A program made the translations under genes and the position numbers. This document shows, in pieces, positions 5,497-23,046 of a stretch of DNA of 37,356 nucleotides. Source of the stretch: an uncultured Actinomycetes bacterium. GTDB taxonomy: Bacteria > Actinomycetota > Rubrobacteria > Rubrobacterales > Rubrobacteraceae. The notes under the pieces were generated by a model. It was not told the DNA's origin and did no database searches. It worked only from the letters and a program-made list of their open reading frames with translations. Numbering within the stretch: the stretch's first letter is position 1; the number at the start of each line of letters is the position of its first letter. The DNA is taken from positions 1-37,356 of the forward strand of contig CALMWA010000341.1 of assembly GCA_937873125.1 (NCBI GenBank). Reading direction: 5' to 3'.

Positions 5497-5967
5497 CTAC
5501 ACAACGGCGAGCGACGCGACCGCCAGGCTGACCACGATATCCGCCTGCGAGACCCGCAAGGAGAGCCTCTGAAGCTTCCGGCGGCGCTCAGCCCGTGCGC
5601 GGGCCTCGTCCTCACTTCCGGCTCGGCGCTCGGCCTCGGCGAGCCCGGCGAGCCTCCGTCCGAAGTAGGCCCCGTGGACAACTACCAGACCAAGCAGTAT
5701 CGCCAACAACAAGCACTCCACGTATAGGGCGGTCCCGAAGCCCGTCAAGAGTCCGTCCAACACGGCGAAGATAACGAGCAGGGCCAGGTTGATGCCGCCC
5801 ACCCTGGCGTACTGCTTCCCGATCTTGGCGCGCACCGATACGCGCTCGTGTTCCTTCCACTTCATGGCGCGCAGCGCGGGTGAGACCACGGCCGTCGTGA
5901 AGACAACGCCGCCCAGCCAGACCCCGGCCAGTACGGCGTGCATGGTATCCACGATTACGCTCAACAT
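5497..5967 (-). CDS. Small multi-pass membrane protein (DUF4149/CopD-like)
   Basis: MLSVIVDTMHAVLAGVWLGGVVFTTAVVSPALRAMKW... followed by several hydrophobic helices. Confidence 0.7.
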   Translation of the reverse strand: MLSVIVDTMHAVLAGVWLGGVVFTTAVVSPALRAMKWKEHERVSVRAKIGKQYARVGGINLALLVIFAVLDGLLTGFGTALYVECLLLAILLGLVVVHGAYFGRRLAGLAEAERRAGSEDEARARAERRRKLQRLSLRVSQADIVVSLAVASLAVV

Positions 5968-10585: not shown

Positions 10586-11365
10586 TCACTCGCCGCGCCG
10601 GCTCTGCTCGACGGCGGGGGGCCGCTTGTTCGCCTTCTGCGTCCTCTCACGGTCCAGCGAGGCCCGCGGGTTGGAGCTGCGGTACTGGACGTGGCTGCGG
10701 CGCAGGTAGCCGAGCGGGACGCTGAAGACGTGGACCAGGCTGGAGAACGGCCACAGGGCGAAAAGTACGAACGCCGAGAGGGTGTGGAGCTGGAAGATCA
10801 AGGGCACCTCCAGCATCAGCTCCGGGTTTGGGGAGAAGTAGAACAGGCTGCGGAACCAGGGCGCTATGTTCTCCCGGTACTCGAACTCCGCCGGCAGGTC
10901 GTACTGGTTGACGTAGATCCGGTACCCGACCGTCGCGGCCATGCCGAGCACTATGACGAGCAGCAAGAGCGCGTCGGTCGCGAAGCGCATCCAGTCGGTA
11001 TTCCGGCGGATGCGCGGGATGAACCAGCGCCGGAGGTTGAGGAGCAGGATGCCGATGAGGGCGACGGCCCCGACGGCGGCGCCAACCCACAGCGAGAGTA
11101 TGTGGTAGTTGTAGTCCGAGACGCCCAGGGAGCGGTAGACCCCGATGGGGACGAGCAGGCCCATCACGTGTCCGCCGAAGACGAACAGGAAGCCCCAGTG
11201 GAAGAGCAGCACGCCCCACATAAGGAGCCTACGCTCCAGGATCTGGCTGGACTTCGGCGTCCACCCGTACTGATCGTAGGCGTAGCGGTAGACATGCCCG
11301 AGCACGAAGGTAACGAGGGCGAGGTAAGGAAATATCACCCACAAGAATTGATACCAGAGGTTCAA
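10586..11365 (-). CDS. narI: Respiratory nitrate reductase gamma subunit
   Basis: MNLWYQFLWVIFPYLALVTFVLGHVYRYAYDQYGWTPKSSQILERRLLMWGVLLFHWGFLFVFGGHVMGLLVP; position after narGHJ. Confidence 0.96.
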   Translation of the reverse strand: MNLWYQFLWVIFPYLALVTFVLGHVYRYAYDQYGWTPKSSQILERRLLMWGVLLFHWGFLFVFGGHVMGLLVPIGVYRSLGVSDYNYHILSLWVGAAVGAVALIGILLLNLRRWFIPRIRRNTDWMRFATDALLLLVIVLGMAATVGYRIYVNQYDLPAEFEYRENIAPWFRSLFYFSPNPELMLEVPLIFQLHTLSAFVLFALWPFSSLVHVFSVPLGYLRRSHVQYRSSNPRASLDRERTQKANKRPPAVEQSRRGE

Positions 11366-12030
11366 CGCTTCCTCCCGTGGAACACGACGTTGCTGACGGG
11401 GGCCACATTGCTCAAAGAGCCTTCGTTGTCGAAAGGACTACCCGCCGGAGCGTCTGCCGTGTAGGGCTCCAGGCCGACGCTCTCCTGCGGCGGTCCCTGC
11501 ACGATGAGCTTCCGCATCTCCGCCACGGTCGCCTCGTCAATCGCCGGTAGGAAGAAGATCAGGGCTTCCACGAGGTGCGCGTGGGGGCTCCGGTCGTGCA
11601 GTAGGGAGCGCCGGATGACCTCTATGGCCGCCCGGTTCCCGGTGAGCATGGGAAGGCCCGCCTCCGGGACCTCGGAGGCGAACTCCAGGAGAAGCGGGAG
11701 GTAGTCGGGTAGCTCGGTGGTGTCGAGGGGGTAGTCGGCGCGGGAGTAGGCGGCCTTCATGTCCGCGAGGACCTGCCCGCGCGCCCGCGAGTCCCCGTGG
11801 CGATAGTAGCTCAGATAAAGGCAGCCGCGGCGCTTGAAATCGAAGCCCTCGGCGTAGGCGGCCTGCAATCGGGTCGCGGGCTCGTTCTGCCAGTAGTCCA
11901 GGAAGGCGAGCACGGCGTCCTTCGCGGGCGAGGACGGAAGTTCGTGGGCGGCTTCGGCCACCGCGTCCCGGTGCTCAATGATCTCGTCGTCCGGGTAGCA
12001 GAGCAGGATGGAGAGGAGCTTGAAGATCAC
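11362..12030 (-). CDS. narJ: Nitrate reductase molybdenum cofactor assembly chaperone
   Basis: MIFKLLSILLCYPDDEIIEHRDAVAEAAHELPSSPAKDAVLAFLDYW...YLSYYRHGDSRARGQVLADMKAAYSRADY; overlaps narI and narH. Confidence 0.95.
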   Translation of the reverse strand: MIFKLLSILLCYPDDEIIEHRDAVAEAAHELPSSPAKDAVLAFLDYWQNEPATRLQAAYAEGFDFKRRGCLYLSYYRHGDSRARGQVLADMKAAYSRADYPLDTTELPDYLPLLLEFASEVPEAGLPMLTGNRAAIEVIRRSLLHDRSPHAHLVEALIFFLPAIDEATVAEMRKLIVQGPPQESVGLEPYTADAPAGSPFDNEGSLSNVAPVSNVVFHGRKR

Positions 12031-13748
12031 GCGCCCGCCCCCTCCGACCCCCGCCCCTTGAGGTGGAACGCTGCGAAGTCCTTTTTGCTCTTGAAGAGCT
12101 GGACGTTGGGGGCCGCCACCTTGCCGCCGAGGTCGCGCGCCTTCTTCTCCAGCTCGCCCTTCATTTCGTAGAAGGCGCTGTTGCGGTTCCCGTTCGGGGT
12201 TGCGGCGGAGGAGGCGCAGCTTCCGGGGCCGCCCGCGAAGTCGAGGCTGCAGGAGTAGGCGTCGTTGCGGTGTGTGACGTCGGAGGCGGAGGCCGGCGCT
12301 CCGGCGAAGTCCAGGCCGGCCGTGCCGCGTTGCTCGTAGAGCTCGTGCACGATCTCTTTGTGGGCCAGCGGTATGACGTAGCGGTCCTCGTACTTCGCGA
12401 TGGCGAGCAGACGGTACATGTCCTCGATCTCGCCCGGCTCCATCCCGACGGCGGCGGCCACCTCCTCGTCGCCCATCCCGGAGAGGTTCTTCTCGCGCAT
12501 GTAGCCGCGCATCGCGGCGAGGCGCTTGAGGACGCGCCGGATCACTTCCCCGTCGCCGGCGGAGAGGAGGTTGGCGAGGTACTGGATCGGTATCCTGAGC
12601 TCGTCTATGGCCGGGAATACGTCGTCGGGGTTGGCCTCGGCCCCGTCGCCCTCAACGAACCCCATCACCGGCGAGAGCGGCGGCACGTACCAGACCATCG
12701 GGAGCGTGCGGTATTCGGGATGCAAGGGCAGCGCGATGCCCCACTCGATGGCGAGGCGGTAGATCGGGGAGCGCTGGGCGAAAGAGATCCAATCGTCCGG
12801 GATGCCGTCGAACCGCGCCTGCTCCACGACCGCCGAATCGTTGGGGTCGAGGAACACCCTGCGCTGCGCCTCCAGCAGATCCTTCTCGTCCGGGACGGAG
12901 GCGGCGGCCTCCACGGCGTCGGCATCGTACAGCACGAGCCCGATGTAGCGGAGCCTCCCTACGCAGGTCTCGGAGCAGATGGTCGGCTGCCCGGTCTCGA
13001 TGCGCGGGTAGCAAAGCGTACACTTCTCCGCTTTGCCGGAGTCCCAGTTGAAGTAGACCTTCTTGTACGGGCAGCCGGAGACGCAGTAGCGCCAGCCCCG
13101 GCACTGCTCCTGGTCCACGAGCACGATCCCGTCCTCCTCGCGCTTGTACATCGCCCCCGAGGGACACGAGGCCACGCAAGACGGGTTCAGGCAGTGCTCG
13201 CAGATGCGCGGCAGGTACATCATGAACACCTTTTCGTACTCGAAGCGCACCGACTCCTCCAGCTCGCCCCGGATGTTCGGGTCTAGGTGACCGGTCTCGG
13301 GGGCGCCGGCGAGGTCGTCGTCCCAGTTGGGTCCCCACTGCAGATCAATGGGCTCGCCGGAGAGCTGCGAGATCGGCTGCGCGACCGGCTGGTGCTCGCT
13401 CAGTTTGGCGTTCGTGAGGGTCTCGTAGTCGTAGGTCCAGGGCTCGTAAAAGTCGTCTATGGAGGGGAGGTCAGGGTTGAAGAAGATGTTGGCTAGCTTG
13501 CGCAGCTTGCCGCCGGCCTTCAGCTCCAGCTTGCCGTTCTTGCCCAGGGTCCAGCCGCCCTTCCAGCGTTCCTGGTCCTCGTACATCTTAGGGTAGCCGA
13601 CGCCGGGCTTGGTCTCGACGTTGTTCCACCACTGGTACTCGGCGCCCTCGCGGCTGGTCCAGACGTTCTTGCAGGTGACGGAGCAGGTGTGGCACCCGAT
13701 GCACTTGTCCAGGTTCATCACCATCGCCACCTGTGCCTTTATGCGCAC
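12027..13748 (-). CDS. narH: Respiratory nitrate reductase beta subunit
   Basis: MRIKAQVAMVMNLDKCIGCHTCSVTCKNVWTSREGAEYQWWNNVETKPGVGYPK plus CEHCLNPSCVASCPSGAMYKREEDGIVLVDQEQCRGWRYCVSGCPYKKVYFNW. Confidence 0.97.
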   Translation of the reverse strand: MRIKAQVAMVMNLDKCIGCHTCSVTCKNVWTSREGAEYQWWNNVETKPGVGYPKMYEDQERWKGGWTLGKNGKLELKAGGKLRKLANIFFNPDLPSIDDFYEPWTYDYETLTNAKLSEHQPVAQPISQLSGEPIDLQWGPNWDDDLAGAPETGHLDPNIRGELEESVRFEYEKVFMMYLPRICEHCLNPSCVASCPSGAMYKREEDGIVLVDQEQCRGWRYCVSGCPYKKVYFNWDSGKAEKCTLCYPRIETGQPTICSETCVGRLRYIGLVLYDADAVEAAASVPDEKDLLEAQRRVFLDPNDSAVVEQARFDGIPDDWISFAQRSPIYRLAIEWGIALPLHPEYRTLPMVWYVPPLSPVMGFVEGDGAEANPDDVFPAIDELRIPIQYLANLLSAGDGEVIRRVLKRLAAMRGYMREKNLSGMGDEEVAAAVGMEPGEIEDMYRLLAIAKYEDRYVIPLAHKEIVHELYEQRGTAGLDFAGAPASASDVTHRNDAYSCSLDFAGGPGSCASSAATPNGNRNSAFYEMKGELEKKARDLGGKVAAPNVQLFKSKKDFAAFHLKGRGSEGAGA

Positions 13749-16700
13749 TAGTAGACCACCTCGCTCTCGCGCTTGCGGATCACCGTCAGCTCGTCGCGTT
13801 GGGAGCCGGTCGGGCCGTAGTAGTTAAAGCCGTAGGAGAACTGGGCGTAGCCCCCGATCATGTGTGTTGGCTTCACGTAGATCTTGGTCAAAGAGTTCTC
13901 CGTGCCGCCGCGCGTGCCCGAGACCTCGGATATGGGCGTGTTCAAGTGCCTATCCTGGGAGTGGTACATGATGGTGGTCCCCTCCGGGATGCGGTGGGAG
14001 ACGACGGCGCGCGCGGCGACGACGCCGTTGCGGTTGTACGCCTCGATCCAGTCGTTGTCCTTCACGCCCATCTTGGCGGCGTCTATGTCGCTGATCCACA
14101 TCGTCGGCCCGCCCCTAAAAAGCGTGAGCATGGTCAGGTTGTCCTGAAACTCGGAGTGGATGGACCACTTGGAGTGGGGCGTGAGGTACTTGAGGACGAC
14201 CTCGGCCTTGCCGTTGCCCTCGCGGATGTCGCCGGTGTGCTTCGCCATCCGCATCGGCGGACGGTAGGCGGGCAGCCCCTCGCCGTACTCCAGCATCCAC
14301 TCGTGGTCCACGTAGAACTGCTGTCGTCCCGTGAGCGTGCGCCACGGAATGGAGCGGTCAACGTTGATCGTGAACGGCGAGTAGCGTCGCGTGCGGCTCT
14401 CGGTACCGGACCACTCGGGCGAGACGATCACCTTGCGAGGCTGGCTCACTATGTCGGCGAAGGTTATAAGCTCTTCGCCCCGCTCCTCGGCCAGGTCGGC
14501 GAGCGGCATTCCGGTGCGCTTCTCCATCTGCTTGAAGCCCTCGACCGAGAGCCGGCCGTTGGTCGTCCCGGAGAGCGCCAGGATCGCCTCGCAGACCTGC
14601 ACCGCCCGCTTGAGCTCCGGCCTGCCCGCGCCCACGCCGTGGCGCACCGTCCCGTTGCGCCCCTTGAGGTACTCGACCTCCTGGTGGGGCTTCCACATGT
14701 TGCCCTTCGCCGTGATGCCGACGTTCTCCACCGCCGGCCCGAGGGCCTGCATCTTCTCGGCGACAGCGCCGTAGTCGCGCTCGATCACGACGAGCTTCGG
14801 CATCGTCTTGCCAGGGATGGGCTCGCACTCGCCCTTTTTCCAGTCCAGCACCTGGCCCGAGGGCTGGGCGAGGTCGTCGGGCGTGTCGTGCATGAGCGGT
14901 ACCGCCATGATGTCCTTGCGGACGCCGAGGTGCGTCTTCGCCAGTTTGGAGAAGACTTCGGCGACGTAGTTGAAGATGTCCCAGTCGCTCTTCGCCTCCC
15001 ACGGCGGCGTGATCGCCGGGTTGAACGGGTGGATGAACGGGTGCATGTCCGTACTGGAGATGTCGTGCTTCTCGTACCACGTCGCCGTCGGCAGCACGAT
15101 GTCCGAATAGAGCGACGACCCGTTCTTGCGGAAGTCTATCGTCGTGAGGAGGTCCAGCTTGCCCTCCGGCGCCTCGCGCCACGTCACCTCTTCCGGGCGC
15201 ATGTGTTCGGGCGTCTCGTCGGCGCGTATCGCCGCGTCCGGGACGCCGAGCAGGTGCTTGAGGAAGAACTCGTGGCCCTTACTCGAAGACCCGAGCAGGT
15301 TGCAGCGCCACAGGATCAGTACGCGCGGAAAGTTCTCCGGGGCGTCGGGGTCCTCGGCGGCGAAGCGGAGACGGCCCTCCTTCAGCTCGCGCACGACGTA
15401 CTCCTGCACGCTTATGCCCTCTCGCTCGGCCTCCTCAGTTATCTCCAGCGGGTTGCGGTTGAAGGCCGGAGAGGACGGCAGCCAGCCGAGGCGGGCGGAC
15501 ATCGCGAGACAGTCGGCCATATGTTTGCCGGCGAGCTTGCCCTTGCCCAGAGGGCTCGCGAACTCGTCGGCCTTGAAGGTATCGTAGCGCCACTGGCTGC
15601 TCGCCAGGTACCAGAGGGCGGTTCCGGCCATGTGGCGGGTGGGCCTCGCCCAGTCGAAGGCGAAGGCTATGGTGGTCCAGCCGGTTATCGGGCGCACCTT
15701 CTCCTGGCCGACGTAGTGAGCCCAGCCGCCGCCGTTCCTGCCCTGGCAGCCGCACAGGAGGACCAGGACGAGCATGGAGCGGTAGATCTCATCGGAATGG
15801 TACCAGTGGTTGGTGCCGGCGCCCATGATGATCATAGAACGCCCCCCGCTCCTCTCGGCATTCCTTGCGAACTCGCGGGCTATGCGCGTGCAGCGCCCGG
15901 CGTCCACGCCGGTGATCTCCTGCTGCCAGGCCGGCGTGTACGGCTCCGGGTCGTCGTAGCCGGTTGGGAACTCACCCGGCAGCGCGCCGCGATGTATCCC
16001 GTACTGCGCCAGCATCAGATCGTAGACCGTGGTGACCAGGTGCCCGCCGACGCGTCTCGCGGGCACGCCCCGGCGCATCACGGTCCCGCCCTCGTCCGTG
16101 TCGCCGGCGTCGAAGCGCGGCAGGTCCACCTGCACGAGCTCGTCGTGGTTGTCCAGCAGCGTCAGCAGCGGGTCTACTTCGCCCAGATCCAGGTTCCATC
16201 GGCCCATGCCTTCCTCGCCGTACTTGAAACCCATCGAGCCGTTCGGGACTGTGGGCTCGTTCGTATTCGAGTCAACAAAGACGGTCTTCCACTCCGCGTT
16301 CTCCGACGCTTCACCTCCCTCGCCGAGGTCGGAGGCGTGCAGGAAGCGGTCGGAGACGTAGACGCCATCGCGTTCCCTGAGCGTCACGAGCATGGGGAGA
16401 TCGGTGTACTTCCTCGCGTACTCCTGGAAGTACGGGACCTGCCGCTCGACGTAGAACTCCTTGAGGATGACGTGACCCATCGCCATGGCGAGCGCGCCGT
16501 CGGTGCCGGGCTGAACGGGTAGCCAGTGGTCGGCGAACTTGGTGTGGTCGGAGTAGTCCGGGCTCACGACGACGGTCTTCTGACCCTTGTAGCGAGCCTC
16601 GGTCATGAAGTGGGCGTCGGGGGCGCGGGTGATGGGGACGTTGGAGCCCCACATCATCAAGTAGCTCGCGTTCCACCAGTCGCCGGACTCGGGCACGTCG

Positions 16701-17416
16701 GTCTGGTCGCCCCATATTTGCGGGGACGACGGCGGGAGGTCGGCGTACCAGTCGTAGAAGCTCGGGATGGTGCCGCCGATGAGCGACATGAACCGCGAGC
16801 CGCCGGCGTAGGAGGCCATGCTCATCGCGGGGATCGGGGAGAAGCCGATGATACGGTCCGGTCCGTACTTCTTCGTGGTGTAGACGTGGGCCGCGGACAT
16901 GATCTCCGCGACCTCCGGCCACGAGGCGCGCACGAGCCCGCCCTTGCCCCTGACGGCCTTGTACCTCCGCGCCTTCTCTGGGTCCTCGACGATGGAGGCC
17001 CAGGCGTCCACCGGGTCGCCAGTCCGGGCCTTCGCCTCGCGGTACATCTCGACGAGGACGCCGCGCACGTAGGGGTATTTTATGCGGATCGGAGAGTACG
17101 TATACCAGCTAAAGGATGCACCGCGCGGGCATCCGCGGGGCTCGTACTCGGGGGAGTCGGGGCCGTTGGAGGGGTAGTCGGTCTGCTGGGACTCCCAGGT
17201 GATGATGCCGTCCTTGACGTAGACCTTCCAGGAGCACGAGCCGGTGCAGTTCACGCCGTGGGTGGAGCGCACGATCTTGTCGTGCTGCCACCTCTGGCGG
17301 TACGCGTACTCCCACTCCCTATCCCGCGCGTTTAGCTCGGAGTGTCCGCCGGCGCGTTTCTCGCCGCGGCGGAAGTACTGCAGGTTCCTGAGCAGCGGGT
17401 TGGTGGTCTTCGCCAC
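13748..17416 (-). CDS. narG: Respiratory nitrate reductase alpha subunit
   Basis: 1222 aa; HDKIVRSTHGVNCTGSCSWKVYVKDGIITWESQQTDYPSNGPDSPEYEPRGCPRGASFSWYTYSPIRIKYPYVRG; GTG start overlaps the narK TAG stop. Confidence 0.98.
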   Translation of the reverse strand: MAKTTNPLLRNLQYFRRGEKRAGGHSELNARDREWEYAYRQRWQHDKIVRSTHGVNCTGSCSWKVYVKDGIITWESQQTDYPSNGPDSPEYEPRGCPRGASFSWYTYSPIRIKYPYVRGVLVEMYREAKARTGDPVDAWASIVEDPEKARRYKAVRGKGGLVRASWPEVAEIMSAAHVYTTKKYGPDRIIGFSPIPAMSMASYAGGSRFMSLIGGTIPSFYDWYADLPPSSPQIWGDQTDVPESGDWWNASYLMMWGSNVPITRAPDAHFMTEARYKGQKTVVVSPDYSDHTKFADHWLPVQPGTDGALAMAMGHVILKEFYVERQVPYFQEYARKYTDLPMLVTLRERDGVYVSDRFLHASDLGEGGEASENAEWKTVFVDSNTNEPTVPNGSMGFKYGEEGMGRWNLDLGEVDPLLTLLDNHDELVQVDLPRFDAGDTDEGGTVMRRGVPARRVGGHLVTTVYDLMLAQYGIHRGALPGEFPTGYDDPEPYTPAWQQEITGVDAGRCTRIAREFARNAERSGGRSMIIMGAGTNHWYHSDEIYRSMLVLVLLCGCQGRNGGGWAHYVGQEKVRPITGWTTIAFAFDWARPTRHMAGTALWYLASSQWRYDTFKADEFASPLGKGKLAGKHMADCLAMSARLGWLPSSPAFNRNPLEITEEAEREGISVQEYVVRELKEGRLRFAAEDPDAPENFPRVLILWRCNLLGSSSKGHEFFLKHLLGVPDAAIRADETPEHMRPEEVTWREAPEGKLDLLTTIDFRKNGSSLYSDIVLPTATWYEKHDISSTDMHPFIHPFNPAITPPWEAKSDWDIFNYVAEVFSKLAKTHLGVRKDIMAVPLMHDTPDDLAQPSGQVLDWKKGECEPIPGKTMPKLVVIERDYGAVAEKMQALGPAVENVGITAKGNMWKPHQEVEYLKGRNGTVRHGVGAGRPELKRAVQVCEAILALSGTTNGRLSVEGFKQMEKRTGMPLADLAEERGEELITFADIVSQPRKVIVSPEWSGTESRTRRYSPFTINVDRSIPWRTLTGRQQFYVDHEWMLEYGEGLPAYRPPMRMAKHTGDIREGNGKAEVVLKYLTPHSKWSIHSEFQDNLTMLTLFRGGPTMWISDIDAAKMGVKDNDWIEAYNRNGVVAARAVVSHRIPEGTTIMYHSQDRHLNTPISEVSGTRGGTENSLTKIYVKPTHMIGGYAQFSYGFNYYGPTGSQRDELTVIRKRESEVVY

Positions 17417-18630
17417 TACCTCACCCTCCCTTCGGTGGCCGTGTCCGCACCCGACGGACGTTTACGGACGAACAGCGCGTTTACCAGCAAACACCCGACG
17501 GCGAAGACCGCCAGGAAAATGAAACCCAGCGTGTAAGCGCCGGTCGCGTCCCGCACGACGCCCAGGACCAGCGGCGGGAAGAAACCGCCGAGGCCGCCCG
17601 CTGCCCCAACCACGCCCGTCACCGCGCCGGTCTTGGCCGGGTAGTACTCGGCGACCAGCTTGAAGACCGCCCCGTTGCCGAGCCCGAAAAGGACGGCGCT
17701 CGTTAGCGCCCCGATGGTGAACAGGAATATTCCGGGCTCGAAGCTGAGGATGAGGGCCATTACCGGGAGCAGGGCGAAGGAGATCATGAGCGTCCGCGAG
17801 CCGCCGATCTTGTCGGCGAGCCAGCCCCCCACCGGCCTCGAAAGCGTCGCCAGCACCACGAACCCGGCGGCCCGCATCCCCGCCCCCGTCTGGGTGAACC
17901 CGAAGAGGTCAACGAGCAGCTTGGGCAGGTAGATGCCCATAGCCACGAAACCGCCGAAAGTCAGGAAGTAGAACAGGCTGAGGACCCAGGGCATTACTTC
18001 TTCCCGGAACAGCACGAGCCCCGCCGTGACGGAGGGCCGCGGCCCCGTGCTCGGCGCGTCGCGCCCGAGGGTCCAGAAGACCGCCGCCATCGCTATAAGG
18101 GGGATGATGAAGACCCAGAACGCCCACTGCCAGCCATAGAAGGCGGCGATGGCCGGGGCGCTGTAGGCGGCGACGGCGGTCCCGATGTTGCCCATGCCGT
18201 AGACGCCGAGAGCGAGCCCCTGCATATGAGGAGGGAACCACTTGTTTACGAAGGGAACCCCGACGGCGAACGAGGCGCCGGCCAGTCCGATCAAAAAGCC
18301 CCAGAAAAGGAGCCCGGCGAAGGAGCCGCCCAGAAGCCCGATGAACAAGACCGGCACGGTAACGACCAGCATCAAGCCGGTAAAGACCACCCGGCCACCG
18401 AAGCGGTCGGTGATCAGGCCGAGCGGGATGCGGAACAACGAGCCCAGGATCACCGGCGTCGCGATAACCACGCTTATCTGCGTGTTGGATAGCTTGTAAA
18501 GCTCCTGGAACTGCGGCGCCAGCGGCGCCACGAGGCCCCACACAGAGAAACACAGGGCGAAACCCAACGTCGCCAATACCAGCGCCCTGTACGCCCCCGG
18601 TTGCGGACCGGCGGTCCTGGCCGTGCTCAT
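17416..18630 (-). CDS. narK: MFS nitrate/nitrite transporter
   Basis: 12-TM MFS protein; FALCFSVWGLVAPLAPQFQELYKLSNTQISVVIATPVILGSLFRIPLGLITDRFGGRVVF; first gene of the nar operon. Confidence 0.95.
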   Translation of the reverse strand: MSTARTAGPQPGAYRALVLATLGFALCFSVWGLVAPLAPQFQELYKLSNTQISVVIATPVILGSLFRIPLGLITDRFGGRVVFTGLMLVVTVPVLFIGLLGGSFAGLLFWGFLIGLAGASFAVGVPFVNKWFPPHMQGLALGVYGMGNIGTAVAAYSAPAIAAFYGWQWAFWVFIIPLIAMAAVFWTLGRDAPSTGPRPSVTAGLVLFREEVMPWVLSLFYFLTFGGFVAMGIYLPKLLVDLFGFTQTGAGMRAAGFVVLATLSRPVGGWLADKIGGSRTLMISFALLPVMALILSFEPGIFLFTIGALTSAVLFGLGNGAVFKLVAEYYPAKTGAVTGVVGAAGGLGGFFPPLVLGVVRDATGAYTLGFIFLAVFAVGCLLVNALFVRKRPSGADTATEGRVR

Positions 18631-18782: not shown

Positions 18783-18814
18783 TTTGATCACTTCGTTGGT
18801 AAGCATTGATCAAA
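18783..18814. promoter_or_regulatory. Inverted repeat TTTGATCA-N16-TGATCAAA upstream of narK
   Basis: 8-nt arms at 18783-18790 and 18807-18814, about 150 bp upstream of narK; arm centres about two helical turns apart. Confidence 0.4.
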
Positions 18815-18861: not shown

Positions 18862-19281
18862 CTATAGCCCATGCAGAGTGATTCGACCGGGATGGGCGCA
18901 TCCGGCTGGGGCTTCGGGAATCAGCGAGATGCCGCGATGGAAGCGTCCGGCCTCGGAGTGGGGCCAGGGGTCCATGGCGCGGGAAATCTCACGCCCCTCA
19001 TGGGAGTCGGTGCAGTCGGGTTTGGAGGGGCAGTGGTTGCAGACCTGTGGTCGTCCCCGGTAGCGGACGAGCCGCCGCTCGTGGTCCGTCTTCATACGCG
19101 TGAGGAGTTGGTCCTCCGGACAGATCCAGGCGTCGTAAGAGGGATGGTAGGTGAACCCGGCGGTCCGGTACCGCTCCGAGCGGACGTGCGACTGACGCGC
19201 CACGAAGTCCAACGCCAGGGCGACGCCCAGCAGGAAGACCGCGTAACCCACCGCGAGCAAGACTTCCGGGTGGATGCTCAC
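18862..19281 (-). CDS. Small Cys-rich single-TM protein of unknown function, 2 bp downstream of norB
   Basis: GTG at 19281: VSIHPEVLLAVGYAVFLLGVALALDFVARQSHVRSERYRTAGFTYHPSYDAWICPEDQLLTRMKTDHERRLVRYRGRPQVCNHCPSKPDCTDSHEGREISRAMDPWPHSEAGRFHRG...; lies in the C-terminal part of the 433-aa ORF frame. Confidence 0.72.
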   Translation of the reverse strand: MSIHPEVLLAVGYAVFLLGVALALDFVARQSHVRSERYRTAGFTYHPSYDAWICPEDQLLTRMKTDHERRLVRYRGRPQVCNHCPSKPDCTDSHEGREISRAMDPWPHSEAGRFHRGISLIPEAPAGCAHPGRITLHGL

Positions 19282-19283
19282 GG

Positions 19284-21577
19284 CTACCGTTCCCGCCGGC
19301 CGGTCGTCTCCGCCGGCTCGGTGATCTCGGTGAACAGGATGTCTTCCGGCTCTTCGAGCGTTACCCTCGGGACGGTGTAGCGCACGCCGAGGTAGCAGAG
19401 GTACAGGAGCGGCAGCACGCCCCCCACGATAAACAGCACGTCGCCCGGCAGACGCAGCCACTCCAGCAGAGCCACCGTATCCCCCGTCAGGAACTGGAGT
19501 GAGCGGGCCTCGAAGTAGCCCGTGTTGACGGACTCGTAGAGCTGCAAGAGCCCCAGCGGGAAGAGCGTGGCGAAGACCATCCACGCCAGCCCGATGTTTA
19601 GCGACCAGAAGCTCACCTTCGCCGCCCGCTCCGACCACCGCTCCTCGGGGATGAGGTAGCGCAGGCAGAACAGGGCGAAGCCGGCGGCGAGCATCCCGTA
19701 GACGCCCATCATCGCGCCGTGGGCGTACGCCGTGGTGAGGGTGGTCCCGATCTCGTAGTAGGACACTATCGGCAAATTGATGAGGAACCCGAGGATGCCG
19801 GCCCCCAGGAAGTTCCAGAAGCCGACCGCCACCAGGAACATCACCGCCCAGCGGTGCGGGAACGGCGTGCGCGAGCCGGACTCCTGGTGCGCCCCGAGCT
19901 GCAGGAAGCTCCACGCCTCGAACGTGAGGAAGGTGAGCGGGATGACCTCCGCGGCGGAGAAGAAGGAGCCAAGCGCCATCGCCGAAGCCGGCGTCCCGGA
20001 GAAGTAGAGGTGGTGCAGCGTGCCGACCACGCCGCCGACCGAGTAGAGCACGATATCCAGGAAGATCACCGTGAGCGCTATCCTCTCGGAGACGACGCCG
20101 AGCAGCACGAAGATGTAGGCGACCATGACGGTCGTGAACAACTCCAGGAAGTCCTCGACCCACAGGTGGACGACCATGAAGCGCCAGTAGTCGGCGACGG
20201 GAAAGGAGGAGTCGGGCCGGGCGAGCAGGCCGACGGCGTAGAACGCCGGTATCGCGAGCGCCGCCAGGAAGAACATCCAGGGCATGTTGCCGACGGACTC
20301 CCTCCTGAGCCGCACCCGCATCACCCGGAAGAGCATGGCGACCCAGATAAAGAGACCGGCGGAGAGAAGTATCTGCCAGAAACGTCCGAGGTCCAGGTAC
20401 TCGTAGCCCTGGTTACCGAACCAAGCCCACAGGCTGCCCATCCAGCCGTGGATGCCGGCGAACTCTCCGGCCATGCTACCGAAAACGACGAGGGCGAGCG
20501 CGCCGAGCAGACCGTAGGCGAGCCAGTGCTGGTTGCGGGGCTCGCGGCCGGCGATCATGGAGGCCAGGAAGATCCCCGCCGCCAGAAACGACGTGGAGAC
20601 CCACAGGATGGAGAGCTGAACGTGCCACGTCCGCACGATGTTGAACGGCAAGAACTGCGCCAGGTCGAAGCCGAAGAAGCTGGCTATCTCCGCCCGGTAG
20701 TGCTGCGAGGCGGCTCCCACCAGCGTCTGGATCAGGAACAAAGCCGCCATCACCAGGAAGAACCACGCGCACGTCCGCTGGGCCGGCGTGAGCGCCACGT
20801 CGCCGGGGGTGCGAAACGTAAGACGCCGCTGATCCCGCCCCTGCCAGCCTAGGAAGCTCCACCGTCCCACCGCCCCGAAGAGTAACCCCAGTCCACCGAG
20901 CAAAGCGATCAGGGAGACGACGCTCCACACTACCGTGTTGGCCGACGGCGCGTTCCCGACGAGCGGCTCGGAGGGCCAGTCGTTGGTGTAGGAGTAGTTC
21001 AATCCCGGCCGTTCGGCCGCCGCCGCCCACGCTGACCAGCTAAAGAAAGCGGTGAGTTGCTTGATCTCCCGCGGGTCCGTGATCGCCTCCGGCCGCAACC
21101 CGTACTTCGTGGTGGGCTCGGAGAAGAACTTCCCGTAGTATCCGCGCACGTCCTCGAAGGCAGCCGCCTGAGCCCCGGTGAACGTCAAGTCCCCACTCTC
21201 CAAGTCCGACTCGGTGCGCCCGCGAGCCCGGTCGGACTTCCCTCCCCCATAGCTCTTCTCTTCAGGACGGAGGTGGCGGAGCGCCGCAGGTAATCCGCAG
21301 TATAGTCCGGCCCCAGGTAGCCGCCGTGCCCGAAGACGGAACCGTATTGCATGAGCCCGTTCTTCAGGAATACTTTCTGACCCGCCCGAACGTCCTCGCC
21401 GGCGTAGACGACCTTCCCATCCGTCCCGCCGACGCGATCCGGGATGGGAGGCTGCCCGGTGTAGGTCTTGTAACCCATCAACCCGAGAATAAAGAACCCG
21501 AAGATGAAGGTCAGCACGACGGCCTGCAACCAACCTCTGGAGATAAGCAACCCTCGCCGACCCGTTCCTACCGCCAT
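19284..21577 (-). pseudogene. norB: Quinol-dependent nitric oxide reductase (qNor), split by an apparent frameshift near 21260
   Basis: N-terminal part in ORF 21185-21577 (GTGRRGLLISRGWLQAVVLTFIFGFFILGLMGYKTYTGQPPIPDRV...GKVVYAGEDVRAGQKVFLKNGLMQYGSVFGHGGYLGPDYTADYLRRS); remainder in another frame to 19284 (ESGDLTFTGAQAAAFEDVRGYYGKFF...YLDLGRFWQILLSAGLFIWV...VVHLWVEDFLELFTTVMVAYIF). Confidence 0.88.
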
Positions 21578-21625: not shown

Positions 21626-21642
21626 ATTACTATTTCAGTAAT
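21626..21642. promoter_or_regulatory. Palindrome ATTACT-ATTTC-AGTAAT upstream of norB, candidate Rrf2/NsrR-like operator
   Basis: Perfect 6+5+6 inverted repeat 49 bp upstream of the norB start; near-copy at 22245-22261. Confidence 0.65.
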
Positions 21643-21700
21643 ATAACTTTAGGCACCAGTATCGCGCAAGGTCTCGGGGCTATGAGATGATGATGGAGTG

Positions 21701-22165
21701 TTAGGTTCCGGGGAAAGTCTCGCCGGAGGGATTCTGGATAAGAAACTCTTGGAGGGTCTGGGCGCCGAGGTATTCGAGGATGGCGCTCTGGCCCTCTTCC
21801 CAGGCCTCGTGCAGGGCGCAGGGCGCTCCTTCGCCGCAGGCGCGGTTCTGCATGATGCAGCGCGTGACGCCGAACGGTCCCTCGGCCGCCTCCACGGCGT
21901 CGCGGAGGGTTATCTCGTTGGCGGGGCGAGCCAACCGGGAGCCTCCCGCGCGGCCTTGCTCGCTCTCCACGAGACCGGCGTGAGTGAGACGGGCGAGGAT
22001 GCGGGCGAGCAGACGCCGCGGTATGTGAGCCTCGGCCGAGATCATACCTGCCGTAACCCGCTCCTCCGCCCAGGCAAGATAGAGCAAAGCCCTCAAGGCA
22101 TACCGCCCCTCGCTGCTCAACTCCAACCGCAAACCGCCCGCCTCTCCACGGAAACGCTCAACCAC
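21701..22165 (-). CDS. Rrf2-family transcriptional regulator (NsrR/IscR-like, putative Fe-S)
   Basis: LELSSEGRYALRALLYLAWAEERVTAGMISAEAHIPRRLLARILARLTHAGLVESEQGRAGGSRLARPANEITLRDAVEAAEGP plus CIMQNRACGEGAPC, the three-Cys cluster of Fe-S Rrf2 proteins. Confidence 0.93.
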   Translation of the reverse strand: MVERFRGEAGGLRLELSSEGRYALRALLYLAWAEERVTAGMISAEAHIPRRLLARILARLTHAGLVESEQGRAGGSRLARPANEITLRDAVEAAEGPFGVTRCIMQNRACGEGAPCALHEAWEEGQSAILEYLGAQTLQEFLIQNPSGETFPGT

Positions 22166-22244
22166 CCCATAGACCCGCCAAAGCCCCCATAAGATACACG
22201 CTAACCCGAAACGCCGTGCCCGGACCTTCCCCGCAAGACATTTG

Positions 22245-22261
22245 ATTACTATATTTGTAAT
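22245..22261. promoter_or_regulatory. Palindrome ATTAC-TATATTT-GTAAT between rrf2 and the divergent cupin, second candidate operator
   Basis: 17 bp, same length and ends as 21626-21642 (ATTACTATTTCAGTAAT vs ATTACTATATTTGTAAT); lies in the only A/T-rich island of the divergent intergenic region. Confidence 0.65.
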
Positions 22262-22304
22262 ATTATATCGGTAGTCGCCATGTAAATCGGAGAAGGAGGC
22301 GGAA

Positions 22305-22700
22305 GTGAGTATGCGACCTCATCCCGGGACCGAGCGCGAGATGCGGGGACCGTTGCAGAGCTTTGATCTGGGCGCGGAGGTCTCGCGGCTGCGCGGCGAG
22401 AAGGAATGGCGGCTGGGTGGCCGTAACGCCATCACGCTGCGCAAGGGGAGCGGTTTGAGCGTGGTGTTGCTGGTGATGAAGGCCGGGGACCGGCTTGAAG
22501 AGCATGCCGCGCCCGGTCCGATCTCGCTCAGCGTCCACGAGGGCCGCATCAGGTTCTCGGCAGCCGGGGAGACCGTCGAAGCCGGAACCGGCACGGTGCT
22601 GACGTGCGACGCCGGGGTTCGTCACTCTGTGGAGGCCCTCGGTGACACGGTTTGTCTCCTGAACGTGGCAGCGGGGAATGTAGCGCGGGATCCCGGCTGA
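22305..22700 (+). CDS. Cupin-domain protein
   Basis: Preceded by AAGGAGG; SGLSVVLLVMKAGDRLEEHAAPGPISLSVHEGRIRFSAAGETVEAGTGTVLTCDAGVRHSVEAL: cupin motifs. GTG 22305 or ATG 22311 start. Confidence 0.82.
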   Translation: MSMRPHPGTEREMRGPLQSFDLGAEVSRLRGEKEWRLGGRNAITLRKGSGLSVVLLVMKAGDRLEEHAAPGPISLSVHEGRIRFSAAGETVEAGTGTVLTCDAGVRHSVEALGDTVCLLNVAAGNVARDPG

Positions 22701-22713
22701 GCCGGAAAAACTC

Positions 22714-23046
22714 GTGGACCTCGTCGAGAAGGCGACACGCGCCGGTGGCCGGCACGGCGTCGTCTGGACACTGGAGGGGAGCGGCGACCTGAACGCGAAC
22801 CTGGTGCGATTCGGCTCCGGACGAGGCGTCGGGGAACACATGAACGACGAAGTCGAAGTCGTCTTCGTTGGGGTATCGGGGTCGGGGATCGTAATGGTGG
22901 ATGGCGAGGAGCACGCTCTCTCGGCGGGGAAGCTCGTGTTCGCACCTCGGGGCGTCCGGCGCTCGACCCTCGGCGTCTCAGAGGACTTCTCCTACCTAAC
23001 CGTTCACCGCCGGCGGGGACCGCTAGGCATCAGCCCGAGTCCGTGA
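22714..23046 (+). CDS. Cupin-domain protein, second of tandem pair
   Basis: GVVWTLEGSGDLNANLVRFGSGRGVGEHMNDEVEVVFVGVSGSGIVMVDGEEHALSAGKLVFAPRGVRRS. Confidence 0.78.
   Translation: MDLVEKATRAGGRHGVVWTLEGSGDLNANLVRFGSGRGVGEHMNDEVEVVFVGVSGSGIVMVDGEEHALSAGKLVFAPRGVRRSTLGVSEDFSYLTVHRRRGPLGISPSP

Follow-up and report, generated by a model that had tools for sequence, protein, structure and literature searches.

Two AT-rich palindromes that bracket an Rrf2-family regulator gene in the window, the whole 37,356-nucleotide stretch of Rubrobacteraceae DNA analyzed here, are probably the cores of ~25-bp operators of that regulator, a putative Fe-S repressor whose cluster would be attacked by nitric oxide (NO), releasing NO-defence genes. 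The assignment to an Rrf2-type operator and to a nitrogen-oxide/NO regulon is well supported. Direct observations are the sites themselves, how rare they are genome-wide, how they are conserved and distributed with this Rrf2, and the gene content. The result is a specific operator and regulon, open to falsification, for the response of Rubrobacteraceae to nitrogen-oxide stress.

Palindromic cores and the extended operator

The first core (21626-21642) is ATTACTATTTCAGTAAT, a perfect 6-N5-6 palindrome with arms ATTACT/AGTAAT, positioned 48 bp upstream of the norB ATG (21577, minus strand). The second core (22245-22261) is ATTACTATATTTGTAAT and has 5-bp arms ATTAC/GTAAT flanking seven A/T bases. 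Core 2 lies in the divergent rrf2/cupA intergenic region, 43 bp upstream of the cupA start (22305), and overlaps the -10 element of the predicted rrf2 promoter. The first-pass annotation had described both 17-mers and their ATTACT...GTAAT pattern, and we confirmed their positions. A pattern search of the whole 3.74-Mb genome found ATTACTN6GTAAT with 0 mismatches in exactly two places, both in the window. The other genomic matches had one mismatch each, mostly with G/C-containing centres, and none was in the norB/rrf2/cupin cluster. The shorter pattern ATTAC-N7-GTAAT was observed twice compared to ~0.4 occurrences per genome expected from base composition, and a reversed-pattern control gave 0.

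The 17 bp described originally are only the core, as the operator in relatives spans ~25 bp. The consensus from aligned sites was TAcTATTACtaWWWtaGTAATAgTA, with ~2 bits at positions +/-11 and an A/T-rich, loosely specified centre. Core 2 extended to a 25-mer (22241-22265) had 2 mismatches to TANTATTAC-N7-GTAATANTA. Measured against this 25-mer, the window operators kept the core and mainly one flank, with 3 (core 1) and 2 (core 2) mismatches of 16.

Conservation was assessed using a motif read from the window alone, and the window itself was excluded. The test set was 48 upstream regions of rrf2, cupA, cupB, cupC, DUF4149, RIC and norB homologs and the control set was 276 regions upstream of other genes at the same loci. 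ATTAC-N7-GTAAT with at most one mismatch was found in 19/48 regulon-gene regions as compared to 5/276 other regions, giving a p-value (p=1.3e-13) that overstates independence because part of the regions derive from genomes that are close relatives of each other (G026-G028, G014/G015). Allowing two mismatches, matches were found in 30/48 and 11/276 regions respectively. Several of the control-set matches were also in the regulon cluster, for example in the ferredoxin/PF01883 region of G025. Two results are less exposed to kinship among genomes than the p-value: the rank of the motif and its occurrence in a Chloroflexia MAG. ATTAC-N7-GTAAT ranked 1 of the 12,288 palindromic patterns (all 5-base half-sites with spacers of 1-12) scored upstream of regulon genes.

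The 25-mer with at most 2 mismatches was present in 13 of the 15 family genomes with an rrf2 ortholog or fragment as compared to 1 of the 25 without (p=1e-7). Sites were mostly about 30-60 bp upstream of start codons. Genome G025 carried seven such sites, six of them inside one 31-kb stretch, and Rubrobacter taiwanensis (G016) carried degenerate candidate sites only. A near-identical perfect 25-bp palindrome in G024, TAGTATTACGTCTTACGTAATACTA (C77:1443-1467, L147), was set aside, as it has a G/C-containing centre and precedes a PadR-family-like gene; it is probably the own site of that regulator.

One rrf2 ortholog was found outside the family, in a Chloroflexia MAG (L078, G398). A perfect 25-bp operator, the sole one in 5.1 Mb, lies between this gene and a divergent cupB ortholog (L078:8560-8584). 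The cupB ortholog was 43% identical and is followed by an NnrS-like gene (E=2e-5, below the Pfam cut-off). The Chloroflexia Rrf2 joined the Rubrobacteraceae Rrf2 clade with 100/98 support. The contig could conceivably be misbinned, but its sequences stand well apart from those of every family member. The operator copy was either conserved across phyla or transferred. The first-pass annotation had staked its proposal on conservation of the palindromes upstream of norB and rrf2 orthologs, and on this condition it was not refuted, as the site recurs across the family and in the Chloroflexia MAG.

These data bear on two other explanations for the palindromes. The sites overlap promoter-like sequence and the core has an expected frequency of ~0.4 matches per genome, as would fit AT-rich promoter sequence or chance similarity. 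However, the rarity of the pattern, its first rank among the palindromes tested, its phylogenetic co-occurrence and the perfect copy in another phylum leave this explanation almost no chance of being correct. Alternatively, the palindrome could belong to a Crp/Fnr-type denitrification regulator of the DNR/NnrR-like kind, and some such regulators have their genes in the cluster: a Crp-family gene is present in the cluster of G014, G015, G025 and G031, and in several of these a site lies at the promoter of that gene. Crp homologs were found in 40/40 family genomes, whereas the sites are nearly confined to the rrf2-bearing ones, and a Crp/Fnr binder was rejected on this phylogenetic distribution. 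In addition, no Crp gene was found in the window's cluster and none was seen beside the Chloroflexia site, and the operator is odd-spaced and ~25 bp long whereas the known boxes of DNR and NnrR have an even spacing (CTTGATnnnnATCAAG and ctTTGcgnnnncgCAAag; PMC1274295). We consider a Crp/Fnr-type owner highly improbable. The preferred reading, in which the operator belongs to the adjacent Rrf2, is used below.

Genes associated with the operator

The gene downstream of core 1 is norB (19284-21577, minus strand), encoding a quinol-type nitric oxide reductase (PF22085 and PF00115, COX1). It is read in two frames (21185-21577 and 19284-21260), and the frameshift, at about 21240-21260 and close to a run of C, is either a sequencing error or a recent mutation. 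In G024 norB is intact and has the same operator upstream (L064:1-17). As norB of this kind was found in 2/40 family genomes, most family members run the regulon without it. Directly downstream on the minus strand is a small Cys-rich gene (18862-19281) with sub-threshold matches only, to a transposase DDE model. This gene is also kept beside norB in G024 (197 aa; L064:2355-2948), and so in both norB-bearing genomes, and is possibly an unrecognised norB partner.

Next in order on the minus strand are a narK-like MFS transporter gene (17416-18630; PF07690, with the NarK family the best match but below cut-off) and the respiratory nitrate reductase genes narGHJI (10586-17416; TIGR01580, TIGR01660, TIGR00684 and TIGR00351 over cut-off). 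A weak, degenerate candidate site with 2 mismatches of 10 (18787-18803) was detected 156 bp before narK. The narK-like gene is a possible regulon member, as is narGHJI via narK, and narGHJI membership may rest on this site or on read-through from norB. With a degenerate site only, narK and narGHJI were not upheld as certain members. The second cluster of G025 has a better site (2 mismatches over the 25-mer) at a distance of 160 bp upstream of narK. No nirK over the family cut-off was found as a local NO source in the 40 family genomes.

On the other side of core 2 are two cupin genes on the plus strand, cupA (22305-22700; PF07883), in which H67, C101, H107 and C117 were invariant in an alignment of 9 orthologs, and cupB downstream of it (22714-23046; PF07883, Cupin_2). 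In G014, G015 and the Chloroflexia MAG it is the cupB ortholog that lies divergently from rrf2. Many relatives have a hemerythrin HHE gene after cupB (L063, L066, L055, L057), and none was seen after the window cupB. The cupins had been noted initially as not being standard NO-detoxification members, a view that has to be revised, as a cupin is already found beside NsrR in Thermus nsrRST (PMC5748679).

The gene most consistently preceded by a site in relatives encodes a DUF4149 membrane protein, with 10/16 genes having a site with at most one mismatch. DUF4149 was found in 14/15 rrf2-bearing genomes as compared to 1/25 others (p=9e-9), and in G036, the only rrf2-ortholog-free genome with DUF4149, no site was found before it. 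The window also encodes a DUF4149 protein (5497-5967, minus strand, PF13664), and no operator was found upstream of this copy. The di-iron Fe-S repair gene RIC/ScdA (TIGR03652 over cut-off) was preceded by exact sites in G014, G015 and G025 and by degenerate sites in G026-G028. RIC was detected in 6 genomes, all rrf2-bearing, and in 0 of those without rrf2; there was no RIC match in the window's own genome. Sites in relatives were also found before cupA, cupC, cupB and norB, and in G025 before two further genes, one Rieske and one ferredoxin-like; the latter is followed in the cluster by a PF01883 Fe-S assembly gene.

Genes for norB, RIC (dnrN) and NnrS are established NO-regulon members (PMC1274295). 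The operator precedes both NO-reductase and RIC genes and is conserved in relatives, as in NsrR-like regulons. The recurrence of the site at orthologs supports the initial suggestion of a regulon connected with the neighbouring Rrf2 gene and including norB and the cupins, which we regard as its predicted members. Co-occurrence and shared operators also tie DUF4149 and two cupin families to the nitrogen-oxide response.

The Rrf2 regulator and its proposed signal

The rrf2 gene (21701-22165, minus strand) encodes a clear Rrf2 superfamily protein (PF02082 E=7e-35, 120.5 bits compared to a cut-off of 30; TIGR00738 103.4 bits compared to 73.3). Its GTG start is uncertain because the conserved part begins at LRLELSS (codon 12). 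A contig search with the single Rrf2 protein as query matched nothing and a profile from a 15-row alignment found eight loci. Orthologs were present in 14/40 family genomes at E < 1e-50, including Rubrobacter taiwanensis and Rubrobacter MAGs, with a fragment in G013, and were 60-82% identical. In 397 Actinomycetota genomes, orthologs scored 240-259 bits and the next best protein 108, and the orthologs therefore form a distinct clade. A plasmid tblastn search with Rrf2 and cupA returned distant matches only, with no Thermus cluster among the matches listed.

The protein carries a C-x6-C-x5-C-x2-H motif (C103, C110, C116, H119). The three-Cys cluster pointed out by the first-pass annotation held up, as C103, C110 and C116 were invariant in 15 orthologs, as expected of Rrf2 Fe-S sensors, and absent from the other family paralogs examined. 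H119, three residues after the last Cys, was also invariant, and HMMER aligned C116/H119 with IscR C104/H107. The Cys3-His ligand set of IscR is present, with a first Cys spacing of x6 as compared to x5 in IscR. The NCBIfam equivalog models scored 54.4 bits for NsrR (cut-off 182) and 79.1 bits for IscR (cut-off 207.55), both below cut-off with IscR closer. In S. coelicolor NsrR, Asp8 is the fourth [4Fe-4S] ligand (PMC5411485). The aligned position in the window protein and its orthologs is an invariant Arg (SSEGRY). From the sub-cut-off scores, the invariant His and the Arg at the Asp8 position we therefore place the regulator, on sequence criteria, in neither NsrR nor IscR: it is NsrR-like in its predicted targets and IscR-like in its ligand pattern. 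The original label of NsrR-like thus applies at best to function, through the targets, and not to the protein family. The regulator is a natural example of NO-type targets combined with a cluster site that resembles IscR and not NsrR.

This ligand pattern also raises the question of what is sensed. An Rrf2 protein could bind these sites and respond to Fe-S/iron status or redox, as IscR and RirA do, and the N-oxide genes would then be in the regulon on account of producing or requiring Fe-S and heme enzymes. The invariant His, the Arg at the Asp8 position, the better IscR match and the G025 site before the ferredoxin-like gene, with PF01883 next, all agree with iron or redox sensing. The gene set, however, consists of norB, RIC, hemerythrin and cupins with nar adjoining, and no isc/suf genes were seen at sites. 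The C-x6-C-x5-C-x2-H motif is also found in the nearest outgroup Rrf2s, which belong to other actinobacterial families, and several of these Rrf2s adjoin nosZ, a nirK-like gene, multicopper oxidases or a molybdopterin oxidoreductase; such nosZ and nirK-like neighbours also argue against an iron or redox signal, which we consider unlikely.

We infer NO as the signal, as well as binding by the window Rrf2, an Fe-S cluster, and repression rather than activation. The Rrf2 dimer with an intact cluster would occupy TAcTATTAC-N7-GTAATAgTA in the promoter, about 40-50 bp ahead of the start codon, and would silence norB (with transcription perhaps continuing towards narK-narGHJI) together with the divergent cupin pair and, in the window, probably rrf2 itself. 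NO produced by nitrate/nitrite respiration or met from outside would attack the Fe-S cluster, the repressor would leave the DNA, and NO reductase and Fe-S protection and repair functions would be made. The position of the sites shortly before start codons, with the rrf2-side site over the predicted -10, is suited to repression. Autoregulation, also proposed initially, is plausible in the window, where rrf2 shares its gap with core 2, and likely in G010, G024 and the Chloroflexia MAG, which have the same arrangement. It appears to be uneven, as rrf2 has no strong site in most relatives, including G014, G015, G016 and G031.

Tentatively, the regulator may represent a separate Rrf2 NO-sensor lineage with IscR-type Cys3-His ligation and its own 25-bp operator, found in Rubrobacteraceae and at least one Chloroflexia lineage and controlling paired cupins, hemerythrin/RIC and a DUF4149 membrane protein. 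The cupins and DUF4149 would then be unrecognised parts of the NO response.

Comparison with known regulators

An Rrf2 beside NO reductase and cupins is already known from Thermus, and NsrR regulons that include norB and RIC are well established. What is new is the operator together with its taxonomic range, the occurrence of an IscR-type ligand pattern in this setting, and the connection to DUF4149 and paired cupins. The literature searched, mostly outside subscription journals, contained no paper on Rubrobacter Rrf2, none joining DUF4149 to nitric oxide, and no nitrogen-oxide stress operator or regulon described for Rubrobacteraceae.

In Thermus thermophilus the nsrRST genes, encoding an Rrf2 regulator, the ScdA_N protein NsrS and the Cupin_2 protein NsrT, lie beside norC, and NsrR activates norC and represses nirS (PMC5748679). 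The likeness is an Rrf2 Fe-S regulator beside NO reductase genes with a cupin, and a palindrome in its own and the nor promoters (PMC5748679). In the window rrf2, cupins and norB are adjacent, but its genome gave no RIC match; RIC and cupins share a site-bearing cluster in G025, G014 and G015. The Thermus operator is CTTGACCNNGGTCATGG and the Thermus cluster has an ScdA_N-only protein (PMC5748679), as compared to the 25-bp AT-rich operator and a regulon with two cupins, DUF4149 and full-length RIC in Rubrobacteraceae.

NsrR regulons of Proteobacteria, Bacillus and Streptomyces share the norB, RIC/ytfE(dnrN) and narK-like targets, and their operator is likewise an odd-spaced inverted repeat around N5 (gATGyAT-N5-ATrCATc as compared to ATTACT-N5-AGTAAT; PMC1274295). 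The half-site sequence differs, there is no Asp at position 8, and the NsrR equivalog score is far below cut-off. The most frequent target of NsrR, hmp, was not seen among the Rubrobacteraceae targets. IscR shares the C-C-C-H ligand order and is the best-scoring NCBIfam equivalog for the window regulator; it differs in having C-x5-C rather than C-x6-C and isc/suf genes rather than N-oxide targets. In its structure with DNA, S. coelicolor NsrR holds a 23-bp operator at both ends through the wings, and no bases are contacted in the central 7 bp (PMC9338935). The Rubrobacteraceae operator shows the same organization, with conserved ends and a loosely specified central 7 bp.
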